A stretch of 64,000 bases of DNA from Chromatiales bacterium (lineage in GTDB: Bacteria; Pseudomonadota; Gammaproteobacteria; Steroidobacterales; GCA-2729495). How positions within the stretch are numbered: the stretch's first letter is position 1; each line of letters opens with the position of its first letter. Positions 1 to 32,312 of this stretch are shown piece after piece. The stretch lies in assembly GCA_016789885.1 (NCBI GenBank), contig JAEUPZ010000025.1, forward strand, positions 1-64,000. Reading direction: 5' to 3'. A program made the position numbers and the translations under genes. The notes beneath the pieces were generated by a model. The model had not been told where the DNA came from. It did not search any database and worked only from the letters and a program-made list of their open reading frames with translations.

Positions 1-1835
1 TGGGCGGCATCGGCCAGCAGCAGTCGCGCGCCGGCGTCCCTGAGGATGAAGGCGCGGCGCGCCGCCGGGTACGCGGGGTCCAGGGGCAGCAGTACGCCGC
101 CCGCCCGCAGCACCGCGAGCAGCGCGACGACGAGCGCTGCCGACCGCGGCAGCGCCACGCCCACCGGCACGCCGGGACCGGCACCGCGGGCGGCTAGCAC
201 CGCCGCCAGCGCGTCCACCCGGGCCGCCAGCTCGCCGTAGGCCAGCGTGGCGTCGGCCGCCCGCACCGCCGTGGCAGCCGGCGTCGCCGCGGCCTGGTCC
301 AGGAACCGCGCGACCAGCGTCGGCCCGCACGGCTCACCGATGGCCTGGCCCTGCCAGTCCCGCACGATCCGCACGCGTTCCTCCGGCGCCAGCAGCGACA
401 CGGCCGCGTGGGGCGAGCGGGGCGCCGCGAGCAGCGCGGCCAGCAGCCGCGGGTAGCCGTCGGCGATCGCGCGGGCCACGCCGGGCTCGACACGGTCCGT
501 GGCGAAGCCGAGGTGGCCCCCGTAGCCGCCGTCGACCGTGGCGCGCAGGCCCATCTCCAGGTCGAAGTAGGACGACCGGCGCACCGGCAGCGTCGCGAGG
601 CCGAACTCCACGCCATCGGCCTCGACGGCATCCCAGCCGGGCTCCACCGAGAACAGCACCTGGAACAGCGGATGCTCGGCCAGGCGCCGCGGCGGCCGGA
701 GCGCCGCCACGACATCGGCGAAGGGCACGGCGCGATGGTCCAGCGCCGCGAGCACCGTCGTGCGCTCGCGCACCACGACGTCGGCGAAGGTCGTGAGCCC
801 GTCGAGCGGCGTGCGCAGCACCACCGGGCTGACGAGGCAGCCGACGACGCGCGCCAGCGCCGGACCGTCGCGCAGCGTGAGGGGCGTGCCGACCAGCAGG
901 TCGCGCTCGCCGGTCACCCGGGACAGCGCGAGGCGGAAGGCCGCCAGCAGCACCATGAACGGCGTCGCGCGAAGCTCCCGCGCCAGCGAGCGCACCGCGT
1001 CACCGGTGGCTGGCGGGACCACGACGGCCAGCCGCTGCGACTCGCGCACCACCGGGGCCGCCGGGCGCGGCAGCGCGCCGAGGCCCGCCAGCGGCGCGTC
1101 CCGCAGCCCATCGACCACGGCGGCCAGCGCCGCCGGATCCGTGGCACCACCCCCGGCGGCGAAGGCGAAGTAACCGTCGTCGTCGACGGCGGGCAGCGGC
1201 TCACCGGCGTAAGCGCGCGCCAGGTCGTCCCGGATCACCGCCACCGACAGCCCGTCGGCGGCGAGGTGGTGCGCCGTCACGACGAGGCTGTGGCGGTCGC
1301 CGTCGTGGGTCGCGAGGACCGCCCGCACGGGTGGCACGGCCGCAAGGTCGAAGGGCCGCGCGAGCTCGACCGTGGCGAGGTCCGCCAGGGCATCGGCACC
1401 GGGCCCGGACAGCGCGACCTGCCGGAAATCCACCGGCTCCGCAGCCGGCCGCGGCACCTGCCGGACGTGGTCTCCGTCCGCCACGAACCGCGTGCGCAGC
1501 AGCGGATGGGCTGCCACCACCTGCGCCCAGGCGGCAGCCACGCGAGGCGCATCGACGGGCCCGCGGAGCGTGACGACGAACTGCTCGCCGGCGCTGGTGT
1601 CGCCCGGGTAGAGCGACTCGAGGAACCACAGGCTGCGCTGGGGTGGCGACAGCGGATGCCCGCGCCCGGCGTCCCCCGCGAGGCGCGCGAGCAGCGCCGC
1701 CTTGTGCGCACCGAGCGCCGCGCGCAGGACCGGGGTCAGCGCGCCTGCCGGCGCGTCGTAGCGCAGGCGGCCGTCGGCCGCCTGCAGCCGCACGCCGGCC
1801 TCGTCCAGCTGCGCGAGCAGCTGCTCCAGCGTCAT
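1..1835 (-). CDS. Nonribosomal peptide synthetase, docking-C-A (partial, runs off left edge)
   Basis: This is the first 611 residues of a nonribosomal peptide synthetase whose 3' end lies outside the window. Residues 1-50 (start MTLEQLLAQLDEAGV) resemble a TubC-type N-terminal docking domain, which binds the tail of a partner synthetase. A condensation domain follows at about 55-480 with an intact catalytic HHxxxDG motif (HHLAADG, near residue 188). An adenylation domain starts near residue 490 (AYGELAARVDALAA) and is cut by the window edge, so its substrate cannot be read. The ATG overlaps the stop of the upstream synthetase as ATGA, so the two are translationally coupled and this protein should act directly after it. 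Family assignment is secure; the product is unknown. Confidence 0.93.
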   Translation of the reverse strand, partial: MTLEQLLAQLDEAGVRLQAADGRLRYDAPAGALTPVLRAALGAHKAALLARLAGDAGRGHPLSPPQRSLWFLESLYPGDTSAGEQFVVTLRGPVDAPRVAAAWAQVVAAHPLLRTRFVADGDHVRQVPRPAAEPVDFRQVALSGPGADALADLATVELARPFDLAAVPPVRAVLATHDGDRHSLVVTAHHLAADGLSVAVIRDDLARAYAGEPLPAVDDDGYFAFAAGGGATDPAALAAVVDGLRDAPLAGLGALPRPAAPVVRESQRLAVVVPPATGDAVRSLARELRATPFMVLLAAFRLALSRVTGERDLLVGTPLTLRDGPALARVVGCLVSPVVLRTPLDGLTTFADVVVRERTTVLAALDHRAVPFADVVAALRPPRRLAEHPLFQVLFSVEPGWDAVEADGVEFGLATLPVRRSSYFDLEMGLRATVDGGYGGHLGFATDRVEPGVARAIADGYPRLLAALLAAPRSPHAAVSLLAPEERVRIVRDWQGQAIGEPCGPTLVARFLDQAAATPAATAVRAADATLAYGELAARVDALAAVLAARGAGPGVPVGVALPRSAALVVALLAVLRAGGVLLPLDPAYPAARRAFILRDAGARLLLADAA

Positions 1836-4702
1836 AGCTCGCCCTGGTCGCGGGCTCCCGCGGCAGCGTCCGCGGCACCGAGCCGCGGCGCCATGGCGGC
1901 AATGGTCGGCCCGTCGAACAGCGCCGCCAGCGGCACCAGGCACCCCAGCCGGCGCGCCACGGCGGTGACCAGCTGCACGGCGAGGATCGAGTCACCGCCC
2001 AGGTCGAAGAAGTCGTCGTCGCGGCCGACGCCGTCGATGCCGAGTACCTCTTCCCAGAGCGTCGCCAGCGCCTGCTCCTGCGGCGTGGCAGGTTGCACCC
2101 ACGGCGTGGCGAGGCGCGGCCGCGACGAGCCCGGCGACGGCAGCGCCGCGCGGTCGAGCTTGCCGTTGGTGTTCAACGGCAGGGCCGGTACGAACACCCA
2201 GGCCTGGGGCAGGCTCGTGTCCGGCAGCAGCAGCGAGAGCCCGGCCCGCAGGTCGCTGACGGACGGGCCCTCGCCGGCCGCCAGCGTCGCCGCGAGCGCG
2301 CGATGCAGCGCCGTCGTGCCGGCGTCGTCGCGGCCATGCCGCGACACGAGCCGCAGCACGCCGTCGGGCGCGTCCACCTCGACGACGTAGTCGGGGAAGC
2401 GCGGATCGCTCTCGTACACGCAGCGCCAGCGCACCGTGAGCCGCTGGCCGCGGGTGACGGGCAGCGCCGCGCCCGGCAGCGGCAGGAAGACCGGCAGCCA
2501 GCCCTGCTGCTCGGCGAGGTAATCGACGACGTCGCCTTGCATCACCTCGAGCTCGGCCCACAGCAGCAGCCCGTCGAGCAGCCCGTCCCGGGTGATGACG
2601 AAGCACGCCTCGCCCGCGTGGGTATCGGGGAGATCCTGCCGGAAGTCGAGCACCTCGAAGGTCGCGGCCCCGGCGAGCAGGTCGCCGGCGCCGAGGCCCC
2701 GCACGCAGAGGCGCAGGTCGGTGCGGCCGTCGCTCCCCTGCAGCTGCCGCGCATAGCGCAGCGCCGCGGCGTCGTAGCGAGGCGCGGCGCGGAGGCTCAC
2801 CGGCAGCGAGGCCGGCGCGATGCGCGTCGTGCAGCGCGCCGGCAGCGGCACGCAGCCCGGCACGAAGTGGCGGGCCGCGGCGCGCCAGGCGCTGACGACG
2901 CCGTCGGCCGAGCCGATGTTGCCGACGATGCCCTGGCAGCAGGCGTCGACGGGCACCGGCAGGGACAGGTCGGCGATGTCGCCGGCCAGCACCGTGATGC
3001 GGCCGGCGAGCCCGAGGCGCCCGACCAGTTCGCGCGCATCGCGCGCCGCGGCCTCCAGCACCTCGACGGCGTAGACGTGGGCGGCACCCGCCTCGACGGC
3101 GAGGCGCGCGAACAGCGCGTCGCGCCCGGTGCCGAGGTCGAGCACGACGCGCCCCGGCGCCACGGCGGCGAGCGCGCGGCGCATGGCCTCGAGCCTGCGC
3201 GGCTCGACGTTCATCAGCCCGTAGAGGAACTCGTCGTACAGGCCGTGGGCGCCGAGCGAGGGCCAGAAGGCGGCGCCCGTCGACGGCGCGCCGGTGGACT
3301 GGGCAGCCTCCGGCACGACGTAGGCCGTCAGCCGCGGCGGGCCGCGGCCATCGGCGCGCAGCACGACGGCGGCATCGCGCACGCCGGGCTGGCGCCGCAG
3401 GGCCGCCTCGACCTCGGCGGGCTCGAGGCGCGCGCCGCGGAACTTGATCTGGCTGTCGGCGCGGCCCAGCAGCCGCAGCGTGCCGTCCGCGCAGAGCTCG
3501 CCGCGGTCACCGGTGCGGTACCAGCGCCCGGGCTCGCCGGCCAGCGCCGCGAAGCGGCCCCTGCCGTCCGCCGGATCGAGGTAGTCCGCGACGCAGTCAC
3601 CGGCCACCCACACCTCGCCCGGCGTACTGGCGGGCAGCGCGTCGCCGGCGGCGCCGACGACCCGCAGGCGCCGGCCCGGCAGCGGCGCGCCGACGTTGGC
3701 GGCGTCGGGCGCCGCGGCGCTCGCGGGCCCGAAGCGGCGCAGCGTCAGCTGGCCCGCCGTCTCGGTGATGGCGTAGGTGTTCACGAGCTCCGGGCCCCGC
3801 GGGACCTGCGCGAACCAGCGCTGCACGTCGTCGTCGCGCACCGGCTCGCCGGACAGGGCCACGCAGCGCACCCGGCCCTTCGCCAGCCGTGCGGCGAAGT
3901 CCGGCGCGTCGAGCAGCCGGCGGAAGGCCGACGGCGTCTGGCTGAAGACCGTGACGCCCTCTTCGACCAGGAAGTCGGCCAGCGCGGCCGGGTCACGGCG
4001 CGTGGCCTCGGGCACCACGGCGAGGCATGCGCCGTGCAGCAGCGCGCCCCAGGTCTCCCAGATGGAGAAGCCGAAGGCCGGCGAGTGGAACCAGCTCCAG
4101 GTGTCGCGGTCGTCGAGCCCGAGCCCGGCGGTGATGCCGGCGAAGAGCCCGGCGACGTTGCCGTGGGTCACGACGACGGGCTTGGGCCTGCCCGCCGAGC
4201 CCGAGGTGAACACGAGGTAGGCCGGCGCCGTGGCCGGCAGCGGCAGGGCCATGTCCGTCGACGGCGCGGCGGCCACGGTCGCGACCTCCCGGTCGAGGTC
4301 GAACACCGCCACGCCCGGCGGCAGCCGGACCCGCAGGGCCGCGCGCGTAACGACGAGCGGCGGCGCCACGAGCCCGACCAGGGCGCCGAGCCGCGCGTCG
4401 GGCTGGACAGGATCGAGCGGCACCCAGGCGGCGCCCGCCTTCAGCACCGCCAGCAGGGCGACGAGCAGGTCGGGACCGCGGTCCAGCAGCACGGGCACGC
4501 ACTGCCCCGGCTGGACGCCCCGGCCCACCAGCGCGTGGGCCAGGCGGTTGGCCGCACCGTTGAGGTCGCGGTAGCCGAGCCGCCACTCGCCGTAGACCAC
4601 GGCCAGCGCGTCGGGACGCCGCAGCGCGTGGGCCTCGACCTGCCGCGGCAGCGGCAGCGCCGGCGCGGCAGCCGCCGCGACGAACGCCTCGCGGGCGCTC
4701 AC
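1832..4702 (-). CDS. NRPS module with adenylation domain interrupted by a PRMT-like methyltransferase, plus carrier domain
   Basis: A 956-residue loading-type NRPS protein with no condensation domain. The adenylation core spans 1-465: A3 FTSGSAGRPKP near 165, A5 NTYAITETAG near 308, A7 YRTGD near 395, A8 around 412-430. Between A8 and A9/A10 (LNTNGKLDR near 843) lies an insert of about 340 residues. It has an SAM-binding motif (VLDLGTGRDALFARL near 520) and a following beta-rich part like the PRMT barrel. A carrier domain with FFDLGGDSI (near 898) ends the protein. Interrupted A domains of this kind activate and methylate one building block. The A4 region reads FGFSIWETW, with Gly where most alpha-amino-acid-activating domains have the amine-binding Asp, so the substrate may not be a standard amino acid (inference). 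The start is GTG, overlapping the methyltransferase stop by 4 bp. Confidence 0.93.
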   Translation of the reverse strand: MSAREAFVAAAAAPALPLPRQVEAHALRRPDALAVVYGEWRLGYRDLNGAANRLAHALVGRGVQPGQCVPVLLDRGPDLLVALLAVLKAGAAWVPLDPVQPDARLGALVGLVAPPLVVTRAALRVRLPPGVAVFDLDREVATVAAAPSTDMALPLPATAPAYLVFTSGSAGRPKPVVVTHGNVAGLFAGITAGLGLDDRDTWSWFHSPAFGFSIWETWGALLHGACLAVVPEATRRDPAALADFLVEEGVTVFSQTPSAFRRLLDAPDFAARLAKGRVRCVALSGEPVRDDDVQRWFAQVPRGPELVNTYAITETAGQLTLRRFGPASAAAPDAANVGAPLPGRRLRVVGAAGDALPASTPGEVWVAGDCVADYLDPADGRGRFAALAGEPGRWYRTGDRGELCADGTLRLLGRADSQIKFRGARLEPAEVEAALRRQPGVRDAAVVLRADGRGPPRLTAYVVPEAAQSTGAPSTGAAFWPSLGAHGLYDEFLYGLMNVEPRRLEAMRRALAAVAPGRVVLDLGTGRDALFARLAVEAGAAHVYAVEVLEAAARDARELVGRLGLAGRITVLAGDIADLSLPVPVDACCQGIVGNIGSADGVVSAWRAAARHFVPGCVPLPARCTTRIAPASLPVSLRAAPRYDAAALRYARQLQGSDGRTDLRLCVRGLGAGDLLAGAATFEVLDFRQDLPDTHAGEACFVITRDGLLDGLLLWAELEVMQGDVVDYLAEQQGWLPVFLPLPGAALPVTRGQRLTVRWRCVYESDPRFPDYVVEVDAPDGVLRLVSRHGRDDAGTTALHRALAATLAAGEGPSVSDLRAGLSLLLPDTSLPQAWVFVPALPLNTNGKLDRAALPSPGSSRPRLATPWVQPATPQEQALATLWEEVLGIDGVGRDDDFFDLGGDSILAVQLVTAVARRLGCLVPLAALFDGPTIAAMAPRLGAADAAAGARDQGEL

Positions 4703-5490
4703 GCCGGCACCCGGCCGGCCCGCACGGCCGTCAGCGCCACGACGGGCGGCTGCTCGACGTAGCCGGCGAACCAGTCAGGATCCGCCTCGTCGCCGCAGCC
4801 CGGATCCAGCGAAAGCCCGTGCCAGCCGACGTTGGTGAAGCCGGCGGCCTGCAACGCGGCGGCGTAGGTCCCGCGCCCGTAGTAGCGGGTGTCGAAGCGC
4901 ACGAGCTCACGGCCGGCCACCAGCGCATAGTGGATCGGCGCGCCGTCGGTGAGCGCCGTGACCTCGCGGCTGAAGCCGTAGGGGGCGTAGCGCGACAGGG
5001 CGTCGGGCACCGGGTCGGGATTCTCGACCAGCGCCACGAGCCGGCCGCCGGGCCGGAGGTTGGCCGCAAGCCCCGCCGCCATGGCGGCGAGGTCCGTCAC
5101 CGACGGCGCGTAGTGCAGCAGGTAGGCCGCCAGGACGGTGTCGAAGGCACCGAGCACCGGCAGCGCCGCGGCATCGTGCTGCCGGTACTCGGCGCCGGAG
5201 GGGTCGCGGGCCTCAGCCTCCCGGGCCAGGTCCAGCATGGCGCCCGAGAGGTCGAAGGCGACGACGCGGCGGGCGCCGCGGGCGCGGAGGCCCCGCGCGT
5301 ACCAGCCGTCGCCGCAGCCGGCGTCGAGCACGGCCTCGCCCGTCACGTCGCCGAGCAGTTGCCAGAGCGTGAAGGCCTCGATGTGACGGCGCACCGGCGA
5401 ATGCCGCGTGCGCTGGTACGAGCGCGCAATGGCGTCGTAGGCGGCGCCGGCCTGCGGCGCCGGCGCCGCACCGGGCCGGGGCGTGGTCAC
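4699..5490 (-). CDS. Class I SAM-dependent methyltransferase
   Basis: A 263-residue free-standing methyltransferase. The SAM-binding motif I reads VLDAGCGDGWYARGL at about residue 50-65, followed by an acidic motif II (VVAFDLSGAML), as in the Rossmann-fold UbiE/BioC-like superfamily. The GTG start at 5,490 overlaps the deaminase stop (GTGA), and its own stop overlaps the GTG of the NRPS gene, so it sits inside the NRPS operon. It is therefore probably a tailoring enzyme for the peptide or for a precursor, but the acceptor cannot be deduced. A longer reading frame upstream exists; I reject it because it would run through the deaminase gene. Confidence 0.85.
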   Translation of the reverse strand: MTTPRPGAAPAPQAGAAYDAIARSYQRTRHSPVRRHIEAFTLWQLLGDVTGEAVLDAGCGDGWYARGLRARGARRVVAFDLSGAMLDLAREAEARDPSGAEYRQHDAAALPVLGAFDTVLAAYLLHYAPSVTDLAAMAAGLAANLRPGGRLVALVENPDPVPDALSRYAPYGFSREVTALTDGAPIHYALVAGRELVRFDTRYYGRGTYAAALQAAGFTNVGWHGLSLDPGCGDEADPDWFAGYVEQPPVVALTAVRAGRVPA

Positions 5491-5993
5491 GGCTGCCCCG
5501 GCAGCCGGCCCGGCGGCAGGGCGCCGGCCCAGCGCGCCAGCAGTGCGCGGCACTCGTCGCCCCGCACGGGGCCGGCCAGCTCGAGGGCGGAAGGTGGCGG
5601 CGCGAAGCACTCGTCGCCGGTGAGGCGGTGCATGTCATCGAGGCTCGCGCCAAAGACGACGCGGCGGATCCCGGCGTAGTGGCAGGCGGCGAGGCACATG
5701 GGGCACGGCTCGACGGTGGCGTAGAGCACGCAGTCGTCGAGGCGCGGGGCCCGCACGGCCCGGCAGGCGGCGCGGATGGCCAGGATCTCGGCGTGGGCCG
5801 TGGCGTCGGGGCTGCCGATGACGCCGTTGTGCTCGGCGGCGAGCACAACGCCTGCGTGGACGATGCAGGCCCCGACCGGCGGCTCGCCCAAGGCCAGCGC
5901 CCGGTCAGCCACCGCCAGCGCCTCGCCCATGAACCGGGCGTCGTCGGCGGGCACCGGGCCCGGGGGTGGTGGTCGCTGGGCGGCCTCATCCAT
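5487..5993 (-). CDS. Nucleoside/guanine deaminase-like protein (CMP/dCMP deaminase superfamily)
   Basis: A 168-residue zinc-dependent cytidine-deaminase-fold enzyme. The catalytic HAE (TAHAEILA) and the zinc-binding PCPMC motif (VEPCPMCLAACHYAG) are both intact. This spacing is found in bacterial guanine deaminases and in tRNA adenosine deaminase TadA. The PCPMC form, rather than the PCAMC of TadA, favours a free base or nucleoside substrate (inference). It starts at the ATG at 5,993, 13 bp after the queD stop, and overlaps the methyltransferase start. Coupling to queD and to NRPS genes suggests it works on a purine- or pterin-derived intermediate of the pathway rather than in housekeeping. 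Confidence 0.82.
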   Translation of the reverse strand: MDEAAQRPPPPGPVPADDARFMGEALAVADRALALGEPPVGACIVHAGVVLAAEHNGVIGSPDATAHAEILAIRAACRAVRAPRLDDCVLYATVEPCPMCLAACHYAGIRRVVFGASLDDMHRLTGDECFAPPPSALELAGPVRGDECRALLARWAGALPPGRLPGQP

Positions 5994-6006: not shown

Positions 6007-6363
6007 TCAGGGGCCCTCGTAGATCGCCCCGCTCGTGCAGGTCTCGTGGACGGTGACCCGGGCAAGCTGCGGCAGCGAAGGCTTGAGGCGCGTCCAGATC
6101 CAGCGCGCCAGCACCTCGCTGGTGGGGTTCTCGAGGCCCTCGATCTCGTTCAGGTAGTTGTGGTCGAGCTGCTGGTACAGCGGGTCGAACCGCGCCTTGA
6201 TGTCGGCGAAGTCCATGATCCAGCCGGTGTGCGGGTCGATGTCGCCGCGCACGTAGATGACGCCCCGCCACGAATGGCCGTGCAGCCGGGCGCACTTGTG
6301 GCCCGGGGGCACGTTGGGCAGGCGGTGAGCCGCCTCGAAGACGAATTCCTTGAATATCTCCAT
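6007..6363 (-). CDS. queD: 6-carboxy-5,6,7,8-tetrahydropterin synthase / 6-pyruvoyl-tetrahydropterin synthase family (QueD)
   Basis: A 118-residue protein of full QueD length. The zinc histidines are visible in FEAAHRLPN and in CARLHGHSW, with the catalytic cysteine at [10 protein letters not shown] (residue 24). QueD converts dihydroneopterin triphosphate to 6-carboxytetrahydropterin, the second step toward 7-deazaguanine (queuosine) and deazapurine antibiotics. It is the first gene of a minus-strand operon that continues through the deaminase, methyltransferase and NRPS genes. It may serve queuosine synthesis alone, but its position as the leader of a biosynthetic operon makes a role in that pathway worth considering. 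The ATG at 6,363 is the only start that gives the family N-terminus. Confidence 0.9.
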
Positions 6364-6507: not shown

Positions 6508-7191
6508 ATGAACGACATCGCCATTCCCAGCACCGTCGCCATCGTCGGCGGCACCGGCGCCCTCGGCGGGGGGCTGGCGCGGCGCCTGGCCCGGGCGGGG
6601 CTGACCGTGGTGATCGGCTCGCGCGACGCAGCGAAGGCGGCCGCCGCGGCGACGAGCCTGGCGGCGGCGCTGCCGGGCAGCCGGGTCACGGGACTCGGCA
6701 ACCTCGCCGCCGCCAGCGCCGCCGGACTGGTGGTGCTGGCGGTGCCCTTCGCGAACCACCGGGCCACACTGCAGGAGATCGCCCCGGCCCTGGCCGGCAA
6801 GATCCTCGTCGACACGACGGTGCCCCTGGTGCCGCCCCGGGTCGCCCGGGTGCAGCTGCCGCCCGAGGGCTGCGCCGCCCTGGCCGCCCAGCAGCTGCTC
6901 GGCGACGGGGTGACGGTGGTGTCGGCCTTCCAGAACGTCTCGGCCGACTCGCTGCAGTCCGACGAGGAGCTGGACTGCGACGTGCTGGTGACCGGCAACA
7001 AGGCCGAGGCCCGCGAGGTGGTCGTCGGCCTCGCGGAGCGCGCGGGCCTGCGCGCCTGGCACGCCGGCTCGCTCGAGAACTCAGCCGCTGCCGAGGCCCT
7101 GACCTCGGTGCTGATCTTCATGAACAAGCGCTACGGCGGCGTGCACACCGGGATCCGCATCACCGGCATCGGCGACGGCGCCGCCGGCTGA
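6508..7191 (+). CDS. npdG: NADPH-dependent F420 reductase (F420H2:NADP+ oxidoreductase)
   Basis: A 227-residue Rossmann protein that exchanges hydride between NADPH and coenzyme F420. The N-terminal dinucleotide motif is [16 protein letters not shown], with Ser-Arg (IGSRD) after the second strand, as expected for NADPH preference. The middle ([11 protein letters not shown]) and the C-terminal half match the NpdG/Fno family rather than ketol-acid reductoisomerases. It leads a plus-strand operon of F420 biosynthetic genes 22 bp upstream of cofE, which fixes its role: it supplies reduced F420 for the LLM-class enzymes encoded elsewhere in the window. Confidence 0.92.
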
Positions 7192-7212
7192 CGACGACCC
7201 GGCCGCGGTCCC

Positions 7213-7977
7213 ATGGGGGCGCTGTCCTTCGAACCCGTCACCGGGCTGCCGCTGGTCGCGCCGGGCGACGACCTGGCCGCGCTGGTGGCCGCGGCCCTGC
7301 GCGCCGCAGGCCGCGCGCCCATGGCGGGCGACATCATCGCCGTCGCGCAGAAGGTCGTCTCGAAGGCCGAGGGCCGGCTGGTCGACCTGCGCGGCGTCAC
7401 GCCCTCGGACGAGGCCCGGGCCCTGGCGGCCCGCGCCGACAAGGATCCCCGCGTCGCCGAGCTGATCCTCCGGGAGTCGCGCCGCATCGTGCGGGTCTCC
7501 CGGGGCGTCATCATCGCCGAGCACAACGCGGGGACGATCCTCGCGAACGCCGGCATCGACCGCTCCAACGTGGCCGGCGACGACGAGCACGCGCTGCTGC
7601 TGCCCGTCGACGCCGACGCGTCGGCCCGGGCCCTGCGCGCGGCGCTGGAGCGCGAGTTCGGCGGGCCGCTCGGCGTGATCATCACCGACAGCATCGGCCG
7701 CGCCTGGCGGCTCGGCACCGTGGGCCACGCCATCGGCGCGGCCGGCGTCACGGCGGTGCTCGACCTGCGCGGCCGCGGCGACCTGTTCGACCGCCAGCTG
7801 CAGGTGAGCGAGGTCGCCGTGGCCGACAGCGTCGCGGCCGCCGCCGTGCTCGCCATGGGCGAGGCCGCCGAGGGCACGCCGGTGGTGCTGGTGCGCGGCG
7901 TGCCGCTCGCCACCGGTACCGGCGACGGCGGTGCCGCGGCCGTGCTGCGCAACCCCGACGAAGACCTGTTCCGCTGA
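7213..7977 (+). CDS. cofE: Coenzyme F420-0:L-glutamate ligase (CofE)
   Basis: A 254-residue single-domain CofE, which adds glutamates to F420-0 with GTP. Family signatures include AGDIIAVAQKVVSKAEGR near the N-terminus, SRGVIIAEHNAG in the middle and the metal-binding ITDSIGRAWRLGTVG segment near residue 157. Its length matches archaeal and proteobacterial CofE. It lacks the C-terminal flavin (nitroreductase-like) domain of actinobacterial FbiB, which reduces dehydro-F420-0. That lack is meaningful: either a separate reductase lies elsewhere or the organism makes 3-phosphoglycerate-derived F420, which does not need it. cofD follows 13 bp downstream. Confidence 0.94.
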   Translation: MGALSFEPVTGLPLVAPGDDLAALVAAALRAAGRAPMAGDIIAVAQKVVSKAEGRLVDLRGVTPSDEARALAARADKDPRVAELILRESRRIVRVSRGVIIAEHNAGTILANAGIDRSNVAGDDEHALLLPVDADASARALRAALEREFGGPLGVIITDSIGRAWRLGTVGHAIGAAGVTAVLDLRGRGDLFDRQLQVSEVAVADSVAAAAVLAMGEAAEGTPVVLVRGVPLATGTGDGGAAAVLRNPDEDLFR

Positions 7978-7990
7978 TGGCAGTGCCCGC

Positions 7991-8947
7991 ATGAGCACCC
8001 CCCGCTACGTCGTGCTCTCCGGCGGCGTCGGCGGCGCGCGCTTCGCCCGCGGGCTCGTGGCCGCCACGGAGCCCGGCCAGGTCACGGTCATCGGCAACAC
8101 CGGCGACGACTTCGTGCACCTGGGGCTGGCCATCTCGCCGGACCTCGACACGCTGATGTACACGCTGGCCGGCGTCGTCAACGAAGAGACCGGCTGGGGC
8201 CGCCGCGACGAGACCTGGAACTTCCTGGCGACGCTTCGGGCCATGGGCGGCGAGGACTGGTTCCGGCTCGGCGACCGCGACCTCGCGGTGCACGTCGAGC
8301 GCACCCGGCTGCTGGCCACGGGCCGGCCGCTGACCGACGTCACGGCCGAGCTGTGCCGCAGGCTCGGCGTGACCGCGCGCCTGCTGCCCATGACCGACGT
8401 GCCGGTGCGTACCCTCGTCGACACGGACGAGGGCGAGCTGGCGTTCCAGGACTACTTCGTGCGCCGTCGCACCGAACCCCGGGTCCGGGGCCTGCGCTAC
8501 GCCGGCGCGGCGACCGCGCCGCCGTCCGGCCCCGTGGCGGCGGCGCTCACCGACCCGGACCTGGCCGCCGTCTTCATCGGCCCGTCGAACCCATGGCTCA
8601 GCATCGCGCCCATGCTGGCCATCCCGTCGCTCGCCGCCGCCCTGCGCTCCGTGGCGGTGCCGGTGGTGGCCGTGTCCCCCATCGTGGCGGGCAAGGCCCT
8701 CAAGGGCCCGGCGGCGCGGATCATGGCGGACCTCGGTGTCCCCGTCTCGGCCACCGGTGTCGCCGAGTACTACCGGGGGGTTGCCACGGGCCTCATACTG
8801 GACCAGGCCGACGCCGGGCTCGCCCCGGCCGTCGGCGCCACCGGCCTCGCCGCCGGCATCACGGGGACCATCATGACCGACACTGCCGCAGCCACCGCCC
8901 TCGCCCGCTACTGCCTCGGGTTCGCGGCCTCGCTGCGCCGCAGGTAA
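7991..8947 (+). CDS. cofD: 2-phospho-L-lactate / LPPG:FO transferase (CofD)
   Basis: A 318-residue CofD that transfers the activated phospho-acid moiety to the deazaflavin FO. The N-terminal glycine-rich loop [23 protein letters not shown] and the late GPSNPWLSI segment are diagnostic. The start at 7,991 (MSTPRYVV) gives the family N-terminus; a longer frame upstream overlaps cofE and adds unrelated sequence. It lies between cofE and cofC and is separated from cofC by only 4 bp, so the genes are co-transcribed. Confidence 0.95.
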
Positions 8948-8951
8948 GCCC

Positions 8952-9629
8952 GTGCCGTCTGCCTGGGCCCTGGTGCCGATCAAGCGGTTCCCGGCCGCCA
9001 AGTCGCGGCTCTCCGCCGTCTTCAGCCGCGAGGAGTGCAACCGCCTGGCCGAGGCCATGGCGCGCGACGTGCTGCGGGCCCTGATCGCCGCGCCGGAGAT
9101 CAGCGGCATCGCCATCCTGACGGCGGAGCCCTCGCTCCCCCGGTTCCCCGAGGCGGCCGGTGCGCGTCTCTTCGCCGAGACCCCGGGCGGTGACTACTGC
9201 GCCGACCTGGCAGCGGCGGCGGCGACGCTGGCCGCCAGTGGCGTGCGCACGCTCGTCGTGCTGCCCTCCGACCTGCCGACGCTGTCGGCCGCCAGCATCC
9301 GCGCCCTGCTCACGGCCCACACGGAGACCCCCGAAGGCGTCACCGTGGCGGCAGCCCATGACGGCGGCACCAATGCGCTGGTGCTGACGCCGCCCACCGT
9401 CATCCCGTTCCTGTTCGGGCCCGACAGCGCGGCCCGGCACCTGGAGGCGGCCACGGCCCGCGGCGTCGCCTGCCAGCGCCTCGACATCCCGGCCTTCGCC
9501 CGGGACATCGACACCCCCGAGGACGTGCAGTGGCTCATCGGCCAGCGCGTCGCCTGCGCCACCATCGCGTGGCTGCGGGCCAGCGGCATCGTCGACCGGC
9601 TGAAGCAGCAGGCCGCCGCCGGACCATGA
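8952..9629 (+). CDS. cofC: Phospho-acid guanylyltransferase (CofC/FbiD)
   Basis: A 225-residue nucleotidyltransferase that activates the phospho-acid precursor of F420 with GTP. It begins at a GTG with ALVPIKRFPAAKSRLS, the CofC nucleotide-binding loop, and shows VVLPSDLPTLS and a C-terminal RDIDTPEDV, as in the MobA-like fold. Homologues use 2-phospholactate, phosphoenolpyruvate or, in Paraburkholderia, 3-phosphoglycerate. The substrate of this one cannot be read by eye. Its stop overlaps the fbiC start as ATGA. Confidence 0.92.
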   Translation: MPSAWALVPIKRFPAAKSRLSAVFSREECNRLAEAMARDVLRALIAAPEISGIAILTAEPSLPRFPEAAGARLFAETPGGDYCADLAAAAATLAASGVRTLVVLPSDLPTLSAASIRALLTAHTETPEGVTVAAAHDGGTNALVLTPPTVIPFLFGPDSAARHLEAATARGVACQRLDIPAFARDIDTPEDVQWLIGQRVACATIAWLRASGIVDRLKQQAAAGP

Positions 9630-12025
9630 ACACGATGACGACGCTGCATCCCGAAACCGGCGCCTGGCTCGCTGAACTCGAGGCGCCGCCGCTGCAGTCC
9701 CTGCTGGCCCGGGCCGCGGCGCTGCGGGACGAGGGCCACGGCGACGTCGTCACCTACTCGCGCAAGGTGTTCATCCCGCTGACGGAGCTCTGCCGCGACG
9801 TCTGCCACTACTGCACCTACGCCAAGACTCCGCGCCGGCTGAAGTCCGCCTACCTGACGCCTGACGAGGTGCTCTCCATCGCCCGGGCGGGGCAGGCGGC
9901 GGGCTGCCACGAGGCCCTCTTCACCCTGGGCGACAAGCCGGAGCTCCGCTACCGCGCCGCCCGCGAGGCCCTCGACCGGCTCGGCCATGCGACGACCGTG
10001 GACTACCTGCGGGCCATGGCGGAGCTCGTGCTGCGCGAGACGGGCCTGCTGCCGCACCTGAACCCCGGCGTGCTGACGCCCGCCGACTACGCGGTACTGC
10101 GGCCCGTGGCGCCGTCCTTCGGCCTGATGCTCGAGTCGGCGAGCCCGCGGCTCGCTGAGCGCGGCGGCCCGCACTTCGGTTCGCCGGACAAGGATCCGGC
10201 GGTGCGCCTCGCGGCGCTGCGGGCGGCGGGCGAAGCCCGCGTGCCCACCACGACGGGCCTGCTCATCGGCATCGGCGAGACCCGCGCCGAGCGCCTCGAC
10301 AGCCTGCTGAAGCTCCGCGACCTGCACCGCGAGTGCGGCCACCTGCAGGAGCTGATCATCCAGAACTTCGTGCCGAAGCCCGGCACGCAGATGGCAGGCC
10401 ACGCGCCGCCGCCGCCGGACGAGCTGCCCTGGACCATCGCCGCCGCGCGCCTCGTGTTCGGCGCAGGCATGAGCATCCAGGCGCCGCCGAACCTGAGCCC
10501 GGGGAGGCTCCACGAACTGCTCGGCGCCGGCATCAACGACTGGGGCGGCGTGTCGCCCGTCACGCCGGACCACGTCAATCCCGAGTCGCCGTGGCCGCAC
10601 CTGGACGAACTGGCCGCGGCCACGGGCACCGCCGGCCACGTGCTGGTACCGCGGCTCACGGTCTACCCGGCCTATGTCGCCGGACGCGAGCGCTGGATCG
10701 ACCCTGAGCTCGCGCCGGCCGTGCTGCGCGTCGCCGACGCCACAGGCCTTGCCCGCACCGATGGCTGGAGCGCCGGCGGCGGTGCAGCCGCCGAGCGGCT
10801 GCGGCCGGCGCTGCCGCCACCGACGGCGCCGTTGCGGCCCCGCCTCGCCGCACTGGTCGACGAGGCTCGCCGGGGCGAGCGCCTCGCCGAGGACGACGTC
10901 GTGGCGCTGTTCGCGGCCCGGGGCCCGGCGGTCACCGCCATCGCCGCCGCCGCCGACGCCGCGCGCCGCGAACAGGCGGGCGACACGGTCACCTACGTCG
11001 TCAACCGCAACATCAACTACACGAACCTCTGCGCGTACAAGTGCACGTTCTGCGCGTTCTCGAAGGGCAAGACCGACGAGGACCTGCGCGGCGCGCCCTA
11101 CGTGCTCGACCTCGCCGAGATCGGCCGGCGCACCGAGGAGGCCTGGCACCGCGGCGCCACGGAGGTGTGCCTGCAGGGCGGCATCCACCCGGCCTTCACC
11201 GGGCAGACCTACCTCGACGTGCTGCGCACGGTGAAGGAGGCGGCGCCGGGCATCCACGTGCACGCCTTCTCGCCGCTGGAGGTGACCCAGGGCGCGCGCA
11301 CGCTGGGCCTCACGGTCGAGGCTTTCCTGCGCCGGCTGAAGGACGCGGGCCTCGGCACGCTGCCGGGAACTGCGGCCGAGATCCTCTGCGACGACGTGCG
11401 GCGGCTCATCTGCCCCGACAAGGTGACCACGGCCCAGTGGCTCGACGTGGTGGGCACCGCCCACCGGCTGGGGCTGCGCACGACCTCGACCATCATGTTC
11501 GGCCACCTCGAGACGCCGCGGCACTGGGCCCGGCACCTGCTCGCCATCCGCGACCTGCAGACGCAGACCGGCGGCTTCACCGAGTTCGTGCCGCTGCCCT
11601 TCGTGCACATGGAGGCGCCGATGTACCGGCGCGGGCTCGCCCGGCCGGGCCCGACCTGGACCGAGGTGGTGCTGATGCACGCCGTCGCGCGGCTCGTGCT
11701 CGGCCCCGTCATCCGCAACATCCAGGTGAGCTGGGTCAAGCTCGGCGCAACCGGCGCCGGGGACATCCTGCAGGCCGGAGCCAACGACCTCGGCGGCACG
11801 CTGATGAACGAGTCGATCTCCCGGGCCGCCGGCGCCGCCTTCGGCCAGGAGCTGCCGCCGGAGCAGATGGACGCGCTGATCGACGCGGCGGGCCGCCACC
11901 CGGCGCAGCGGACGACCCTCTACGGCACGCCGCCGGCCGAGCGCGTACAGGCCTCCTACGAGGCGCCGGCCCTCACGGCCCTGCAGTTCCAGTCGGCCCG
12001 GGATTTCCGCGGCCAGATCGCCTGA
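9626..12025 (+). CDS. fbiC: FO synthase, fused CofG-CofH (FbiC)
   Basis: A 799-residue two-domain radical SAM enzyme that joins 5-amino-6-ribitylaminouracil and tyrosine into the deazaflavin FO, the chromophore of F420. The N-terminal CofG half carries the cluster motif CRDVCHYCTY near residue 53. The C-terminal CofH half carries CAYKCTFCAFSKGK near residue 470. The halves are joined by a Pro/Ala-rich linker at about 390-420. In archaea and cyanobacteria these are separate proteins; the fusion is typical of Actinobacteria and F420-making Proteobacteria. The ATG at 9,626 overlaps the cofC stop by 4 bp; an in-frame upstream start would lie inside cofC. Confidence 0.96.
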   Translation: MNTMTTLHPETGAWLAELEAPPLQSLLARAAALRDEGHGDVVTYSRKVFIPLTELCRDVCHYCTYAKTPRRLKSAYLTPDEVLSIARAGQAAGCHEALFTLGDKPELRYRAAREALDRLGHATTVDYLRAMAELVLRETGLLPHLNPGVLTPADYAVLRPVAPSFGLMLESASPRLAERGGPHFGSPDKDPAVRLAALRAAGEARVPTTTGLLIGIGETRAERLDSLLKLRDLHRECGHLQELIIQNFVPKPGTQMAGHAPPPPDELPWTIAAARLVFGAGMSIQAPPNLSPGRLHELLGAGINDWGGVSPVTPDHVNPESPWPHLDELAAATGTAGHVLVPRLTVYPAYVAGRERWIDPELAPAVLRVADATGLARTDGWSAGGGAAAERLRPALPPPTAPLRPRLAALVDEARRGERLAEDDVVALFAARGPAVTAIAAAADAARREQAGDTVTYVVNRNINYTNLCAYKCTFCAFSKGKTDEDLRGAPYVLDLAEIGRRTEEAWHRGATEVCLQGGIHPAFTGQTYLDVLRTVKEAAPGIHVHAFSPLEVTQGARTLGLTVEAFLRRLKDAGLGTLPGTAAEILCDDVRRLICPDKVTTAQWLDVVGTAHRLGLRTTSTIMFGHLETPRHWARHLLAIRDLQTQTGGFTEFVPLPFVHMEAPMYRRGLARPGPTWTEVVLMHAVARLVLGPVIRNIQVSWVKLGATGAGDILQAGANDLGGTLMNESISRAAGAAFGQELPPEQMDALIDAAGRHPAQRTTLYGTPPAERVQASYEAPALTALQFQSARDFRGQIA

Positions 12026-24020: not shown

Positions 24021-25997
24021 TCAGTCCGGCAGCGCGAACGCCATCACGTAGTCGTCGACGCCCTTGGCGTCGTACCACGAGTGACCGCCGACGGCGAAGA
24101 CGACGAACTGCTTGCCGCCCACCGAGTAGGTCATCGGCGTCGCCATGGCCGAGGTCGGCGTCCGGAAGGTCCAGACCTCCTCGCCGCTCTCGATGTCGAA
24201 GGCGTGCACGCGGTTGTCGGGCGTGGCACCGATGAAGATGAGCCCGCCGGCCGTGACGATGGGGCCACCCGCCGTCGGCGCGCCGAAGTTCAGCGGTATC
24301 GGCACCGGCATCAGCTTGTCGAGCCGGCCGAAAGGCACCTTCCAGAGGATCTCGCCCTTGGCCATGTCGACGGCCACCAGCATGTTCCACGGCGGCTTCG
24401 TGCACGGCGTGAAGGACGGCGACATCAGCGGGCCCTGCTGCACGCCGTACGGCGTGTCGCCGAGGAAGCCCGGCTTCTGCATCGGCGCGCCGGCCTCGGG
24501 CCGCTTCGCGTACTCGGGGTCGACCTGCTCGCGCGGGATCAGCTTGACGTAGTACGGGATCTGCGAGACCGGGGTGATCAGGATGTTGCGCGCCGGGTCG
24601 AAGGCGCCACCGCCCCAGTTAGGCCCGCCGCCGGGCTGCGGGAAGAGCAGCGTGCCCGTGGTCATGATGGGCTCGTAGTGCGAGCCGTGGCGCAGCTCCG
24701 CGATCTTGCGCCGGCAGGCGTTGCGGTCGAAGGCCGTGAAGCCCCAGGCGTCGTCCGGGGTGATGGTGTTCTTGACGAGCACCGGCGGTGCCGTCGGGAA
24801 CGGCTGCGTCGGCGAGAGCTTCTCGCCGACGACGTCCGTGTCGGTGGGCACCGGCCGCTCCTCGATGGGGAACACCGGGTCGCCGGTCTCGCGGTTGAAG
24901 GTGAACACCATGCCGGTCTTCACCAGCTGGATCAGCGCCGGGATGGCCTGGCCGTCCTTCGTCAGCGTGACGGCCATGGGCGGCGAGCCCACGTCGCGGT
25001 CCCAGACGTCGTGGTGCAGGGTCTGGAAGTGCCACACCACCTGCCCCGTCGAGCCCCGCACGGCGATGACCGAATTGGCGTAGCGGTTGTCACCGGGCCG
25101 GTGCACGCCCCAGTAGTTGGGCGCCGGGCTCGCCGTCGGGATGAACAGCAGGTCGCGCTCGTTGTCGACGGTCATCGGCACCCAGGTGTTGGCGCCGCCC
25201 ACCGCCATCGGCGTGGGCTCGAGCCCGGTGGCCGGATCCCGGACCAGCGTGTCGAAGGTCCAGCGCAGTTCCCCGGTGCGCGCGTCGAAGCCACGGATCG
25301 CGCCGTTCAGCGCCGACGTGCTCTTGAACTTGTTGGCGGTCGAACTGACCGCGACGATGCCGCTCACCACGGCCGGCGGCGACATCAGCTGCGCACCGCG
25401 CAGCGACTCCGGATCGGTCGGCAGCGTCGCCGCCAGCAGCGGCTCGACGTCGACCGTGCCGCCAGTGCCGAAGCCGGCGCAGAGCTTGCCGTCCCGGGCG
25501 TCGACGGCGATGAGCCGCTTGTCGGAGGTGGCAACGTACAGACGGTGGGCGCAGGCGGCGTCAGCCGGGGCTTCGGCGTCCTGCCAGTACGCAACGCCCT
25601 TGCACTTGAACCGGCCGGCGTAGGGCGTCTTGTCGATCTGCGGGTCGTAGGTCCAGCGCTCGGCGCCGCTGACGGGATCGAGGGCGATGATCTTGCTGAA
25701 CGGGTCGCACAGCACGAGATGACCGCCGGCCTCCGGGGGCAGCAGGGTCGGGGTCACCTGGAAATCGATGACCGACTTCAGCTGGGGATTCGCCGCGACG
25801 GCGCCGGTGCGGTACTGCCACGCCAGCTTCAGCCGGCCGACGTTGTCGCGGTTGACCTGGTCGAGGGACGAGTAGCGGCTGCCGCCCTCGTCACCGCCAT
25901 GGTGCAGCCAGCCCTGGGCGGCGACGGGACCCGCCAGCAGCAGCGGCAGGAGCAGGAACGCGCAGGCGACGCGGTAAACCGGCGGCAGGAGACGCAT
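24021..25997 (-). CDS. PQQ-dependent quinoprotein dehydrogenase (periplasmic)
   Basis: A 658-residue eight-bladed propeller dehydrogenase that oxidises an alcohol or sugar with pyrroloquinoline quinone. It has a signal peptide (VACAFLLLPLLLAGPVAAQG) and the quinoprotein entry motif SRYSSLDQVNRDNVGRLKLAW. The catalytic Asp region is HHDVWDRDVGSPP near residue 335, and the glycine-rich cofactor cover reads TTGTLLFPQPGGGPNWGGG. It has neither the five-helix membrane anchor of glucose dehydrogenase nor a heme-binding CxxCH, so electrons must leave through a separate carrier. No pqq biosynthesis gene is in the window. A paralogue lies at 28,794-30,791. Confidence 0.9.
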   Translation of the reverse strand: MRLLPPVYRVACAFLLLPLLLAGPVAAQGWLHHGGDEGGSRYSSLDQVNRDNVGRLKLAWQYRTGAVAANPQLKSVIDFQVTPTLLPPEAGGHLVLCDPFSKIIALDPVSGAERWTYDPQIDKTPYAGRFKCKGVAYWQDAEAPADAACAHRLYVATSDKRLIAVDARDGKLCAGFGTGGTVDVEPLLAATLPTDPESLRGAQLMSPPAVVSGIVAVSSTANKFKSTSALNGAIRGFDARTGELRWTFDTLVRDPATGLEPTPMAVGGANTWVPMTVDNERDLLFIPTASPAPNYWGVHRPGDNRYANSVIAVRGSTGQVVWHFQTLHHDVWDRDVGSPPMAVTLTKDGQAIPALIQLVKTGMVFTFNRETGDPVFPIEERPVPTDTDVVGEKLSPTQPFPTAPPVLVKNTITPDDAWGFTAFDRNACRRKIAELRHGSHYEPIMTTGTLLFPQPGGGPNWGGGAFDPARNILITPVSQIPYYVKLIPREQVDPEYAKRPEAGAPMQKPGFLGDTPYGVQQGPLMSPSFTPCTKPPWNMLVAVDMAKGEILWKVPFGRLDKLMPVPIPLNFGAPTAGGPIVTAGGLIFIGATPDNRVHAFDIESGEEVWTFRTPTSAMATPMTYSVGGKQFVVFAVGGHSWYDAKGVDDYVMAFALPD

Positions 25998-26078
25998 GGC
26001 AGGCCTCGGCATGGCGGGGGCCTTACTTTAAGCCATGGCGCCGGCACGGCGCGCCCGCGCGGCGGCCAAGCCTCGTGC

Positions 26079-30836: not shown

Positions 30837-32312
30837 TCAGTCGTCGTCGCCTGAGCCGTCGTCGTCGGCGTCATCCTCCAGCTGGATCTCCGTGGCGACG
30901 ATGGGGCTGCCGCCCTGGACGAACCTGACCTGCACCTCGCTACCGGCCGCGACCGCACCGAAAAAGGCGGCCGAATCGATCAAGGCGCCGTCGTCATCCC
31001 GGAACACCGTGGCACCCGTCGTCTGCACGGGCACGCCAAGCACGCTGAGCGCCGGGGGAACGATGGCCCCCGCGGGGCCGCGCAGGCGCCCGGTGCTGCT
31101 GGCGTCGTCGCGCTCGAGGAGCAGCGCCGTCAGCTGCGCACCGCTGCCCGGCGTCCCGCGGGCCTCGATGAAGTCGCCGACCGCGAGGCTTGCCAGCGTG
31201 AACGGCCGTACCCCGCTCCGCTGGTCCTCGACACGGGTGGCAGGCGTCACCTGGATCGTCACGCCGGCGGCCACGAGCGTACCTGCGGCCACGTTGACCG
31301 ACGCGACGTTGGCCTCCACCCGGCCATCGAGGGCGTCGTCATCGCCGTCGTCGTCGTCGTCGAAGGACTCGAACTCGACCTCGCGGGCCACGAGGACGCC
31401 CGAGCTGTTCACGCTGCCACTCACCTCGATCCGCGCGTTGAGGCGCAGGTCGGCCACGGACCCGTCTTCGTATACCGTCGCCGGCGTCGTCGTGACGCGG
31501 ACCCCCGCCACGGTGAAGTCCGTCGGCGAGTTGAACACCGTGATGAAGCCCTCGAGCTCGGAGTCGTCGCGCGAGCCGCCGAGGTCGGCGAAGTCGTCCT
31601 CCCGCTCGACCTCGGTCGCCACGAGGCGCCCCAGTCCGTCGATGGTCGAGCCACGGGCCTCGACGAAGTCGCCATTGACCGGAACGCCGTCGGGCAGCGC
31701 GGCGCCCGTGTACACGACCGTCAGTGCACCCAGCGCGAAGGTCTGGGCCGTCACCGTGGCAGCCACGCCGCGGACCTCGAGCTGGCGGCCGGGCCTCTGC
31801 CGCTCGATGCGGGTGGCCCGCAGCCGTCCGGCCGCGTCCGGGAGACCGCTCACCTCGACCGGCTCGCCCGCCGCAAGGCCCGTGAGGTCGCGCGGACTGA
31901 TGTCGCCGGAGAACGAGGTGTTCGCCGTGACCCGTACCGTCTGGCCGAGGACCACGAAGGTCCCGGCCGCCAGGTCGATGCTGCCGGCCGTGATCGGGCC
32001 CTCGACGGCGGCGTCGTAGTCGATGCGCGTGGCGCGGCGCGTAGTACCGCCATCGCCGCTCTCCCACCGCACGGTGACCTGCTGGCCCACCTGCAGGTCG
32101 GCCTGGGTCCCGGACGCGTCGTTGAAGCTGACCTCGGTCGTCGTGCCCACCTCGTAGCGGACCCCGTTGACGATGACGCTGCCGAAGCCCGTCACGGTGC
32201 CTGAGCTGATGCCCAGCCGGTCGATGCCGGCGGATGCCCCACCGCCACCGCTGCAGCCGGTGATGACCGCAGCCAGGGCCGCGGCGACAAATGCGAGCAG
32301 GCGGGTGCGCAT
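30837..32312 (-). CDS. DUF5666-repeat lipoprotein
   Basis: A 491-residue lipoprotein: signal with lipobox VITGCSGGGG, then repeated beta-rich OB-like units of 65-75 residues of the DUF5666 type. Each runs roughly 'G.V.....F.V.G..V......T.F.DG....L..G..V.V.G......L.A..V' (for example FTVAGVRVTTTPATVYEDGS and TFVVLGQTVRVTANTSFSGD). Acidic runs of Asp are frequent and arise from GTC/GAC triplet tracts. It ends with an Asp-rich tail. It is third in an operon headed by a DUF6502 protein and is a tandem paralogue of the preceding gene. Function is unknown; surface or periplasmic. Confidence 0.85.
   Translation of the reverse strand: MRTRLLAFVAAALAAVITGCSGGGGASAGIDRLGISSGTVTGFGSVIVNGVRYEVGTTTEVSFNDASGTQADLQVGQQVTVRWESGDGGTTRRATRIDYDAAVEGPITAGSIDLAAGTFVVLGQTVRVTANTSFSGDISPRDLTGLAAGEPVEVSGLPDAAGRLRATRIERQRPGRQLEVRGVAATVTAQTFALGALTVVYTGAALPDGVPVNGDFVEARGSTIDGLGRLVATEVEREDDFADLGGSRDDSELEGFITVFNSPTDFTVAGVRVTTTPATVYEDGSVADLRLNARIEVSGSVNSSGVLVAREVEFESFDDDDDGDDDALDGRVEANVASVNVAAGTLVAAGVTIQVTPATRVEDQRSGVRPFTLASLAVGDFIEARGTPGSGAQLTALLLERDDASSTGRLRGPAGAIVPPALSVLGVPVQTTGATVFRDDDGALIDSAAFFGAVAAGSEVQVRFVQGGSPIVATEIQLEDDADDDGSGDDD

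Follow-up and report, generated by a model that had tools for sequence, protein, structure and literature searches.

NRPS1, a predicted loading synthetase encoded in the 64,000-nucleotide stretch of DNA analysed here (the window), has an adenylation (A) domain interrupted by a methyltransferase that folds like the protein arginine methyltransferases (PRMTs). In our alignments both glutamates of the PRMT double-E loop, which relatives of the insert keep, are replaced throughout the uncultured family of the window genome, and this replacement is new. So is a Gly in place of Asp235 in the A domain of 28 genomes. The locus is also a family trait, present in 34 of 37 genomes beside an F420 operon with pterin-forming enzymes, an association that is new as well. 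On balance, the best explanation appears to be an initiation module that loads and methylates an amine-free (hetero)aryl acid as its starter, for which pterin- or lumazine-6-carboxylate would be the most economical choice.

The original prediction, made from the DNA letters alone, was of an A domain split by a PRMT-like methyltransferase in a protein without a condensation domain that feeds a second synthetase. We found this architecture in a single open frame (Table 1). Pfam placed AMP-binding at residues 23-372, followed by the opening half of AMP-binding_C (430-466), a generic Methyltransf_25 match (520-590) and PP-binding (877-938), and detected no Condensation domain in the 956-aa ORF. 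Motif A8 (GRADSQIKFRGARLEPAEVE) lies N-terminal to the insert, while A9/A10 (LPQAW...NGKLDR, with the A10 Lys) and the carrier domain follow it, so that the methyltransferase interrupts the A domain between A8 and A9, as predicted. Judging from its motifs, the A domain is intact around the insert. NRPS2 opens with the anticipated docking domain (TubC_N, Pfam E 2.7e-14), followed by C and A domains, and its ATG overlaps the NRPS1 stop codon (ATGA, 1832-1835). In some relatives the two genes form a single fused ORF of 4202 aa, which confirms the module order.

Table 1. Features of the NRPS1 locus and its neighbours, in window coordinates
Feature	Position	Strand	Basis
NRPS2 start: TubC_N docking, C, A	1..1835	-	Pfam; cut at contig end; probably continues on contig C20
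NRPS1 loading module A-M-A-PCP, 956 aa, GTG start	1832..4702	-	Single frame, no stop
PCP (carrier) domain, GGDS	1889..2074	-	Pfam E 1.3e-16
Asub remainder, A9/A10 (NGKLDR, catalytic Lys)	2138..2254	-	Sequence; Lys invariant in alignment
M domain, PRMT fold (Rossmann + beta-barrel), residues ~479-808	2279..3268	-	Sequence and structure searches
QGIVGNIGSADG, in place of the PRMT double-E loop	2900..2935	-	Alignment to PRMT6 and to SEI(I/V)G..GG.EG relatives
SAM-binding motif I VLDLGTG	3128..3148	-	Asp and the two Gly unchanged across 25 family members
A domain core, motifs A1-A8, code GFWSASTGQ	3305..4636	-	Pfam; Gly at position 235 instead of Asp235
MT2, class I SAM methyltransferase, conserved neighbour	4699..5490	-	Pfam Methyltransf_25 E 4e-18; 29/31 loci
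TadA/guanine-deaminase-like deaminase, HAE...PCPMC zinc site intact	5487..5993	-	Second copy beside housekeeping TadA-type gene
QueD-type 6-carboxytetrahydropterin synthase (CxxxHGH)	6007..6363	-	TIGR03367 above cut-off; only PTPS in genome
Divergent F420 operon npdG, cofE, cofD, cofC, fbiC (fused cofG-cofH)	6508..12025	+	Each gene scores above an NCBIfam equivalog cut-off

A frame error or chimera is ruled out, since the same stop-free A-M-A-PCP layout recurs in 18 relatives and 33 of the 37 family genomes, counting the window genome, contain the insert itself (40-57% identity). A model of full-length NRPS1 was confident per domain (AlphaFold; pLDDT 84, pTM 0.61). Its best Foldseek match was the TioS A-M-A structure 5WMM (E 4.8e-47), with a global TM of only 0.45-0.50 because the domain orientation differs.

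NRPS2 runs off the contig, as base 1 of the window is also base 1 of contig C10. The end of a second contig (C20:82341) matches the first ~80 window bases with ~3 mismatches and carries the A domain on from the point where C10 ends. The two contigs are therefore likely joined, the assembly probably having broken inside the A domain. In the window genome (G000) and in G004 the third elongation module (L102:9886-16341) apparently consists of C-PCP without an A domain; G020 has one there. We found no thioesterase in those NRPS ORFs that were scanned.

Searches against PDB sequences and structures both placed the insert among the PRMTs. PRMT6 was the top sequence match (E 1.4e-9), followed by PRMT7, CARM1 and PRMT1. 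An AlphaFold model of the insert, built with 25 family sequences, had a mean pLDDT of 89, and its leading Foldseek matches were PRMT6 and CARM1. Superposed on PRMT6 with VIA-align, it matched over 284 residues, barrel included, with a Z of 29 and an rmsd of 2.5; Z was ~29 to PRMT1/5/6/8. The model combines a Rossmann domain with a C-terminal beta-barrel, as is characteristic of the PRMT fold superfamily. We therefore rejected a generic Rossmann methyltransferase, for which Pfam might be taken to speak as it returns generic models only. The two results that would have spoken against the original prediction, a placement outside the PRMTs and a fusion created by frame error, were thus both looked for, and neither was found.

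The predicted SAM loop (VLDLGTGRDALF) is present. Asp57, Gly59, Gly61, Glu82 and Asp110 (insert numbering) are invariant in 25/25 family members, with motif I, the post-I Glu and the motif II Asp likewise held in all 25. The SAM motifs are thus intact, and this invariance rules out a degenerate SAM site. Conversely, the active-site loop differs from that of the PRMTs. The double-E loop (SE-8 residues-E) aligns with QGIVGNIGSADG, in which the Gln is present in 25/25 members, the first Glu is replaced by Gly in 24/25 and by Ser in 1/25, and the second by Asp in 25/25. None of the 25 therefore has the double-E signature of the protein arginine methyltransferase enzyme family: the predicted fold and SAM site stand, while an arginine-type active site does not. 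The THW-loop region reads QQ(A/G)WLPVF, on a comparison made by eye only. Median identity over the family is 48% for the M domain, against 44% for the surrounding A domain.

Both glutamates are retained in relatives of the insert from Nostoc, Tistrella, Amycolatopsis, Kibdelosporangium and Streptomyces. Two conserved peptides served as patterns for a scan of contigs from 84,980 species; within the reach of those patterns, an insert of the GNIGS type was confirmed only in the family of the window genome, and the two actinomycete loci found had the double-E form. In Amycolatopsis anabasis (L084:9914-11011) and Kibdelosporangium aridum (L085:9914-10999), a standalone PRMT-like methyltransferase gene with the double-E loop is flanked by two large NRPS genes. 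In another gammaproteobacterial family, a 3587-aa synthetase (G234:C207; L129/L130) contains a PRMT-like domain of 35% identity. This NRPS and the standalone homologues of Amycolatopsis, Kibdelosporangium and Streptomyces are relatives, but without the gene setting of the window locus. In a tree with PRMT-like outgroups, the family M domains formed one clade (100/99) next to the double-E relatives, the Tyr-module inserts among them, and together with these stood apart from the outgroups (100/99). This phylogeny points to common ancestry of the M domain with tyrosine O-methyltransferase inserts of the CrpC/LynB3 type.

The count of 34 NRPS1-bearing genomes includes G035, where only the start of the gene is left on the contig. 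Two genomes of the same genus (G003 and G007; 95% and 92% complete) lack the insert, QueD, the cluster deaminase and CofD, while G005 (70% complete) lacks the insert and CofD. Joint absence of these genes is modest evidence for a connection, because one deletion could explain it. That the genes stay adjacent from genus to genus within the family weighs more. The order PTPS(QueD)-deaminase-MT2-NRPS1-NRPS2, divergent from npdG-cofE-cofD-cofC-fbiC, recurs across the family, and a complete F420 operon, here in a gammaproteobacterial MAG, is divergent from the NRPS locus throughout. Among 31 relative loci, the deaminase and MT2 were present in 29, the other two being contig fragments, F420 genes in 27 and QueD in 21. 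F420 operons in other families of the order (G038, G046 and G049) had no such neighbours. Elsewhere in the window we observed a PQQ-dependent alcohol dehydrogenase-like beta-propeller protein (24021-26012, E 8e-209) and a protein with five DUF5666 repeats (30837-32312).

GTP cyclohydrolase I (FolE) is encoded directly after the last NRPS (NRPS3) in the window genome (G000:C20:68595-69137; L102:2596-3138), where it is one of three copies. It holds the same place in G004, G010, G017, G020 and G023; in G022 the gene is ~5 kb away. The cluster-free genomes G003 and G007 likewise have FolE copies of this type. GTP cyclohydrolase I and a PTPS thus cluster with the NRPS in the window genome, across two contigs whose join is likely, though not in every genome. 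No close PTPS was found in three NRPS-bearing genomes (G014, G015 and G022). QueD is the sole PTPS of the window genome, which also has QueC, QueE and TGT, so the gene may also serve queuosine. Genomes that lack a PTPS nevertheless have QueE, QueC and TGT, which weakens the case for a purely queuosine role. Five genomes (G037, G042, G003, G007 and G022) have QueC and TGT, along with QueE (a weak match only in G042), and no recognisable PTPS/QueD, which leaves the QueD step of queuosine synthesis there unaccounted for.

The specificity code of the NRPS1 A domain, GFWSASTGQ in the window and G(F/Y)(W/F)S..(T/S)G(Q/N/R) in other family genomes, is not a Tyr code. Position 235 is Gly in 28 genomes (23 by code reading and five more through the alignment) and is invariant in 19 aligned modules. 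In amino-acid A domains Asp235 holds the alpha-amino group, whereas DhbE, an aryl-acid domain, lacks it, EnSynA1, a hydroxy-acid domain, has Gly instead, and keto-acid domains have an aliphatic residue; with a D235G change, EntE accepts larger aryl acids (PMC11253843). McyG, which takes Phe without the Asp, shows that this residue is not indispensable (PMC11253843). Glycine at this position makes an ordinary alpha-amino acid starter unlikely. We regard an amine-free acid as the likely substrate class. By analogy with EnSynA1 (PMC11253843), Gly235 alone also fits alpha-hydroxy acids.

The second A code, (I/V)DWVISTDA, has its Asp shifted to 236, as in the Nostoc-plasmid synthetase that follows the CrpC-like one. 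We read it as specifying a beta-amino acid of the beta-Ala type, taking VDWVISLADK to be the beta-Ala code. A DILQ code in a later module presumably specifies Gly, and a further NRPS code reads DA(Q/M)HVGG. The code following the second is DVGEIGSID, replaced by DIES(I/V)GT in three genera; DVGEIGSID(K) has been assigned to Orn (PMC3992020).

Because the locus holds QueD, a deaminase, MT2 and, in several genomes, FolE, pterin- or lumazine-6-carboxylate is the most economical starter, and we tentatively propose it as one. QueD-type enzymes convert dihydroneopterin triphosphate to 6-carboxytetrahydropterin, and FolE and QueD could together supply this carboxylate-bearing ring. The zinc deaminase might then turn the pterin acid into the lumazine acid, and MT2 and the M domain would methylate it. 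The identities of the enzymes up to QueD follow from family membership, while the acid itself we infer. The NRPS1 A domain would adenylate this carboxylic acid without an alpha-amino group and load its own PCP, and the M domain would transfer the SAM methyl to the adenylated or PCP-bound starter, timing and target atom being conjectural. The methylated acyl group would cross the docking interface to NRPS2, to be extended by a beta-alanine-like residue, Orn (or a Lys-like residue) and further residues. An NRPS beside F420 and pterin genes suggests a product that is probably a methylated and novel peptide, and possibly pterin-capped.

Several other starters were weighed against this proposal. 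An alpha-hydroxy or alpha-keto aromatic acid, such as 4-hydroxyphenyl-lactate or -pyruvate, could be O-methylated on its phenol, with the pterin genes present by coincidence. This would accord with Gly235 in the hydroxy-acid domain EnSynA1 (PMC11253843) and with the clustering of the M domain with Tyr-module inserts of Nostoc and Tistrella. However, the PRMT glutamates kept in those very inserts are lost here, Pfam finds no ketoreductase domain in NRPS1, and the dedicated deaminase would be left unexplained; we consider such an acid unlikely. Quite unlikely, in our view, is 7-carboxy-7-deazaguanine (CDG) or its deaminated form, made via FolE, QueD and a shared QueE and then methylated. CDG has a carboxylate, QueE occurs in every genome tested and the locus has a guanine-deaminase-like enzyme, but queE lies outside the locus, and the sequence gives nothing to tell CDG from a pterin acid. 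NRPS1 might also load Tyr or another amino acid and O-methylate it as its starter, in the manner of CrpC, LynB3 and HcaA, with which it shares the insertion point and a homologous M domain (PMC10127204, PMC10949194). The missing Asp235, a code unlike the Tyr codes DASTIAGIG and DASTLAAVC, and the altered active-site loop make this very unlikely. Finally, that the M domain is an inactive, degenerate remnant with a structural role only is hardly credible: the double-E pair is lost, but motif I, the post-I Glu, the motif II Asp and the replacement loop itself are invariant, and identity over the family equals or exceeds that of the A domain.

A loading unit that methylates its own starter, as the original prediction had proposed, hence appears the most likely reading of NRPS1. 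It places a PRMT fold in an assembly line with the arginine-binding pair replaced and in a host A domain without the amino-acid anchor, and is thereby a clear-cut example from which to learn how interrupted A domains change what they methylate. Natural-product clusters are rarely core genes. Here a large NRPS is near-universal in a small-genome family, and F420 genes adjoin it in nearly every locus whose contig extends far enough. This near-core status suggests that the product has a fundamental function in F420-using gammaproteobacteria. It would be a long shot, but the family-wide NRPS may make a methylated peptide capped by pterin or lumazine (pterin-CO-betaAla-Orn-...), which is retained inside the cell and works with F420, as a new redox cofactor or F420 partner. 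If so, a PRMT-fold domain has been re-tooled to methylate a heteroaromatic acid.

Several known systems share parts of this arrangement. PRMT1/5/6/8 have the whole-domain fold and SAM motifs in common with the M domain, which differs in lacking the double-E loop and in being embedded in an NRPS. TioS A-M-A (5WMM), the best whole-protein structural match, likewise has a methyltransferase-interrupted A domain. Its methyltransferase, however, is a backbone N-methyltransferase and is absent from the sequence and structural matches listed for the insert. In a literature search on F420 and NRPSs in Gammaproteobacteria and on pterin NRPS starters, we found only the pepteridine cluster of Photorhabdus (PMC5384830). 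It too combines GTP cyclohydrolase I and a PTPS homologue with NRPS domains, but there a C domain assists in acylating the pterin, and the cluster has no loading A-M-A module, multimodular NRPS or F420 operon (PMC5384830). HcaA of hectoramide B is an earlier example of self-methylation by a first module, in that its O-methyltransferase acts on the first residue; HcaA differs in its C domain, Tyr substrate and extra N-methyltransferase (PMC10949194).

The Tyr-module inserts are the closest parallel. Homologous inserts occupy the same A8-A9 point in an NRPS on a plasmid of Nostoc sp. ATCC 53789 (33% identity) and in one on pTM3 of Tistrella mobilis (40%). On the Nostoc plasmid, a PKS precedes the CrpC-like NRPS and an SDR-annotated synthetase follows it, which we take to be the order crpB-crpC-crpD. 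By strain and gene order, the two inserts would be the tyrosine O-methyltransferases of cryptophycin and didemnin. Their host A domains have Tyr codes (DASTIAGIG in Nostoc, DASTLAAVC in Tistrella) and the inserts keep the double-E motif SEI(I/V)GPIGG(S/C)EG; the window family has neither. In lyngbyapeptin B synthesis, LynB3 has an O-methyltransferase inside its A domain that is ~30% similar to arginine methyltransferases (PMC10127204). LynB3 and LynB5 thus resemble NRPS1 in the type and place of the insert, but their host is a Tyr A domain that holds an N-methylating insert as well (PMC10127204); NRPS1, a loading module whose code is not of the amino-acid type, has a single insert. The original remark that known interrupted A domains mostly carry other methyltransferase types therefore needs amending: with LynB3 (PMC10127204) and the Nostoc and Tistrella relatives, PRMT-like inserts in A domains were already known, and the window module is a variant of them.
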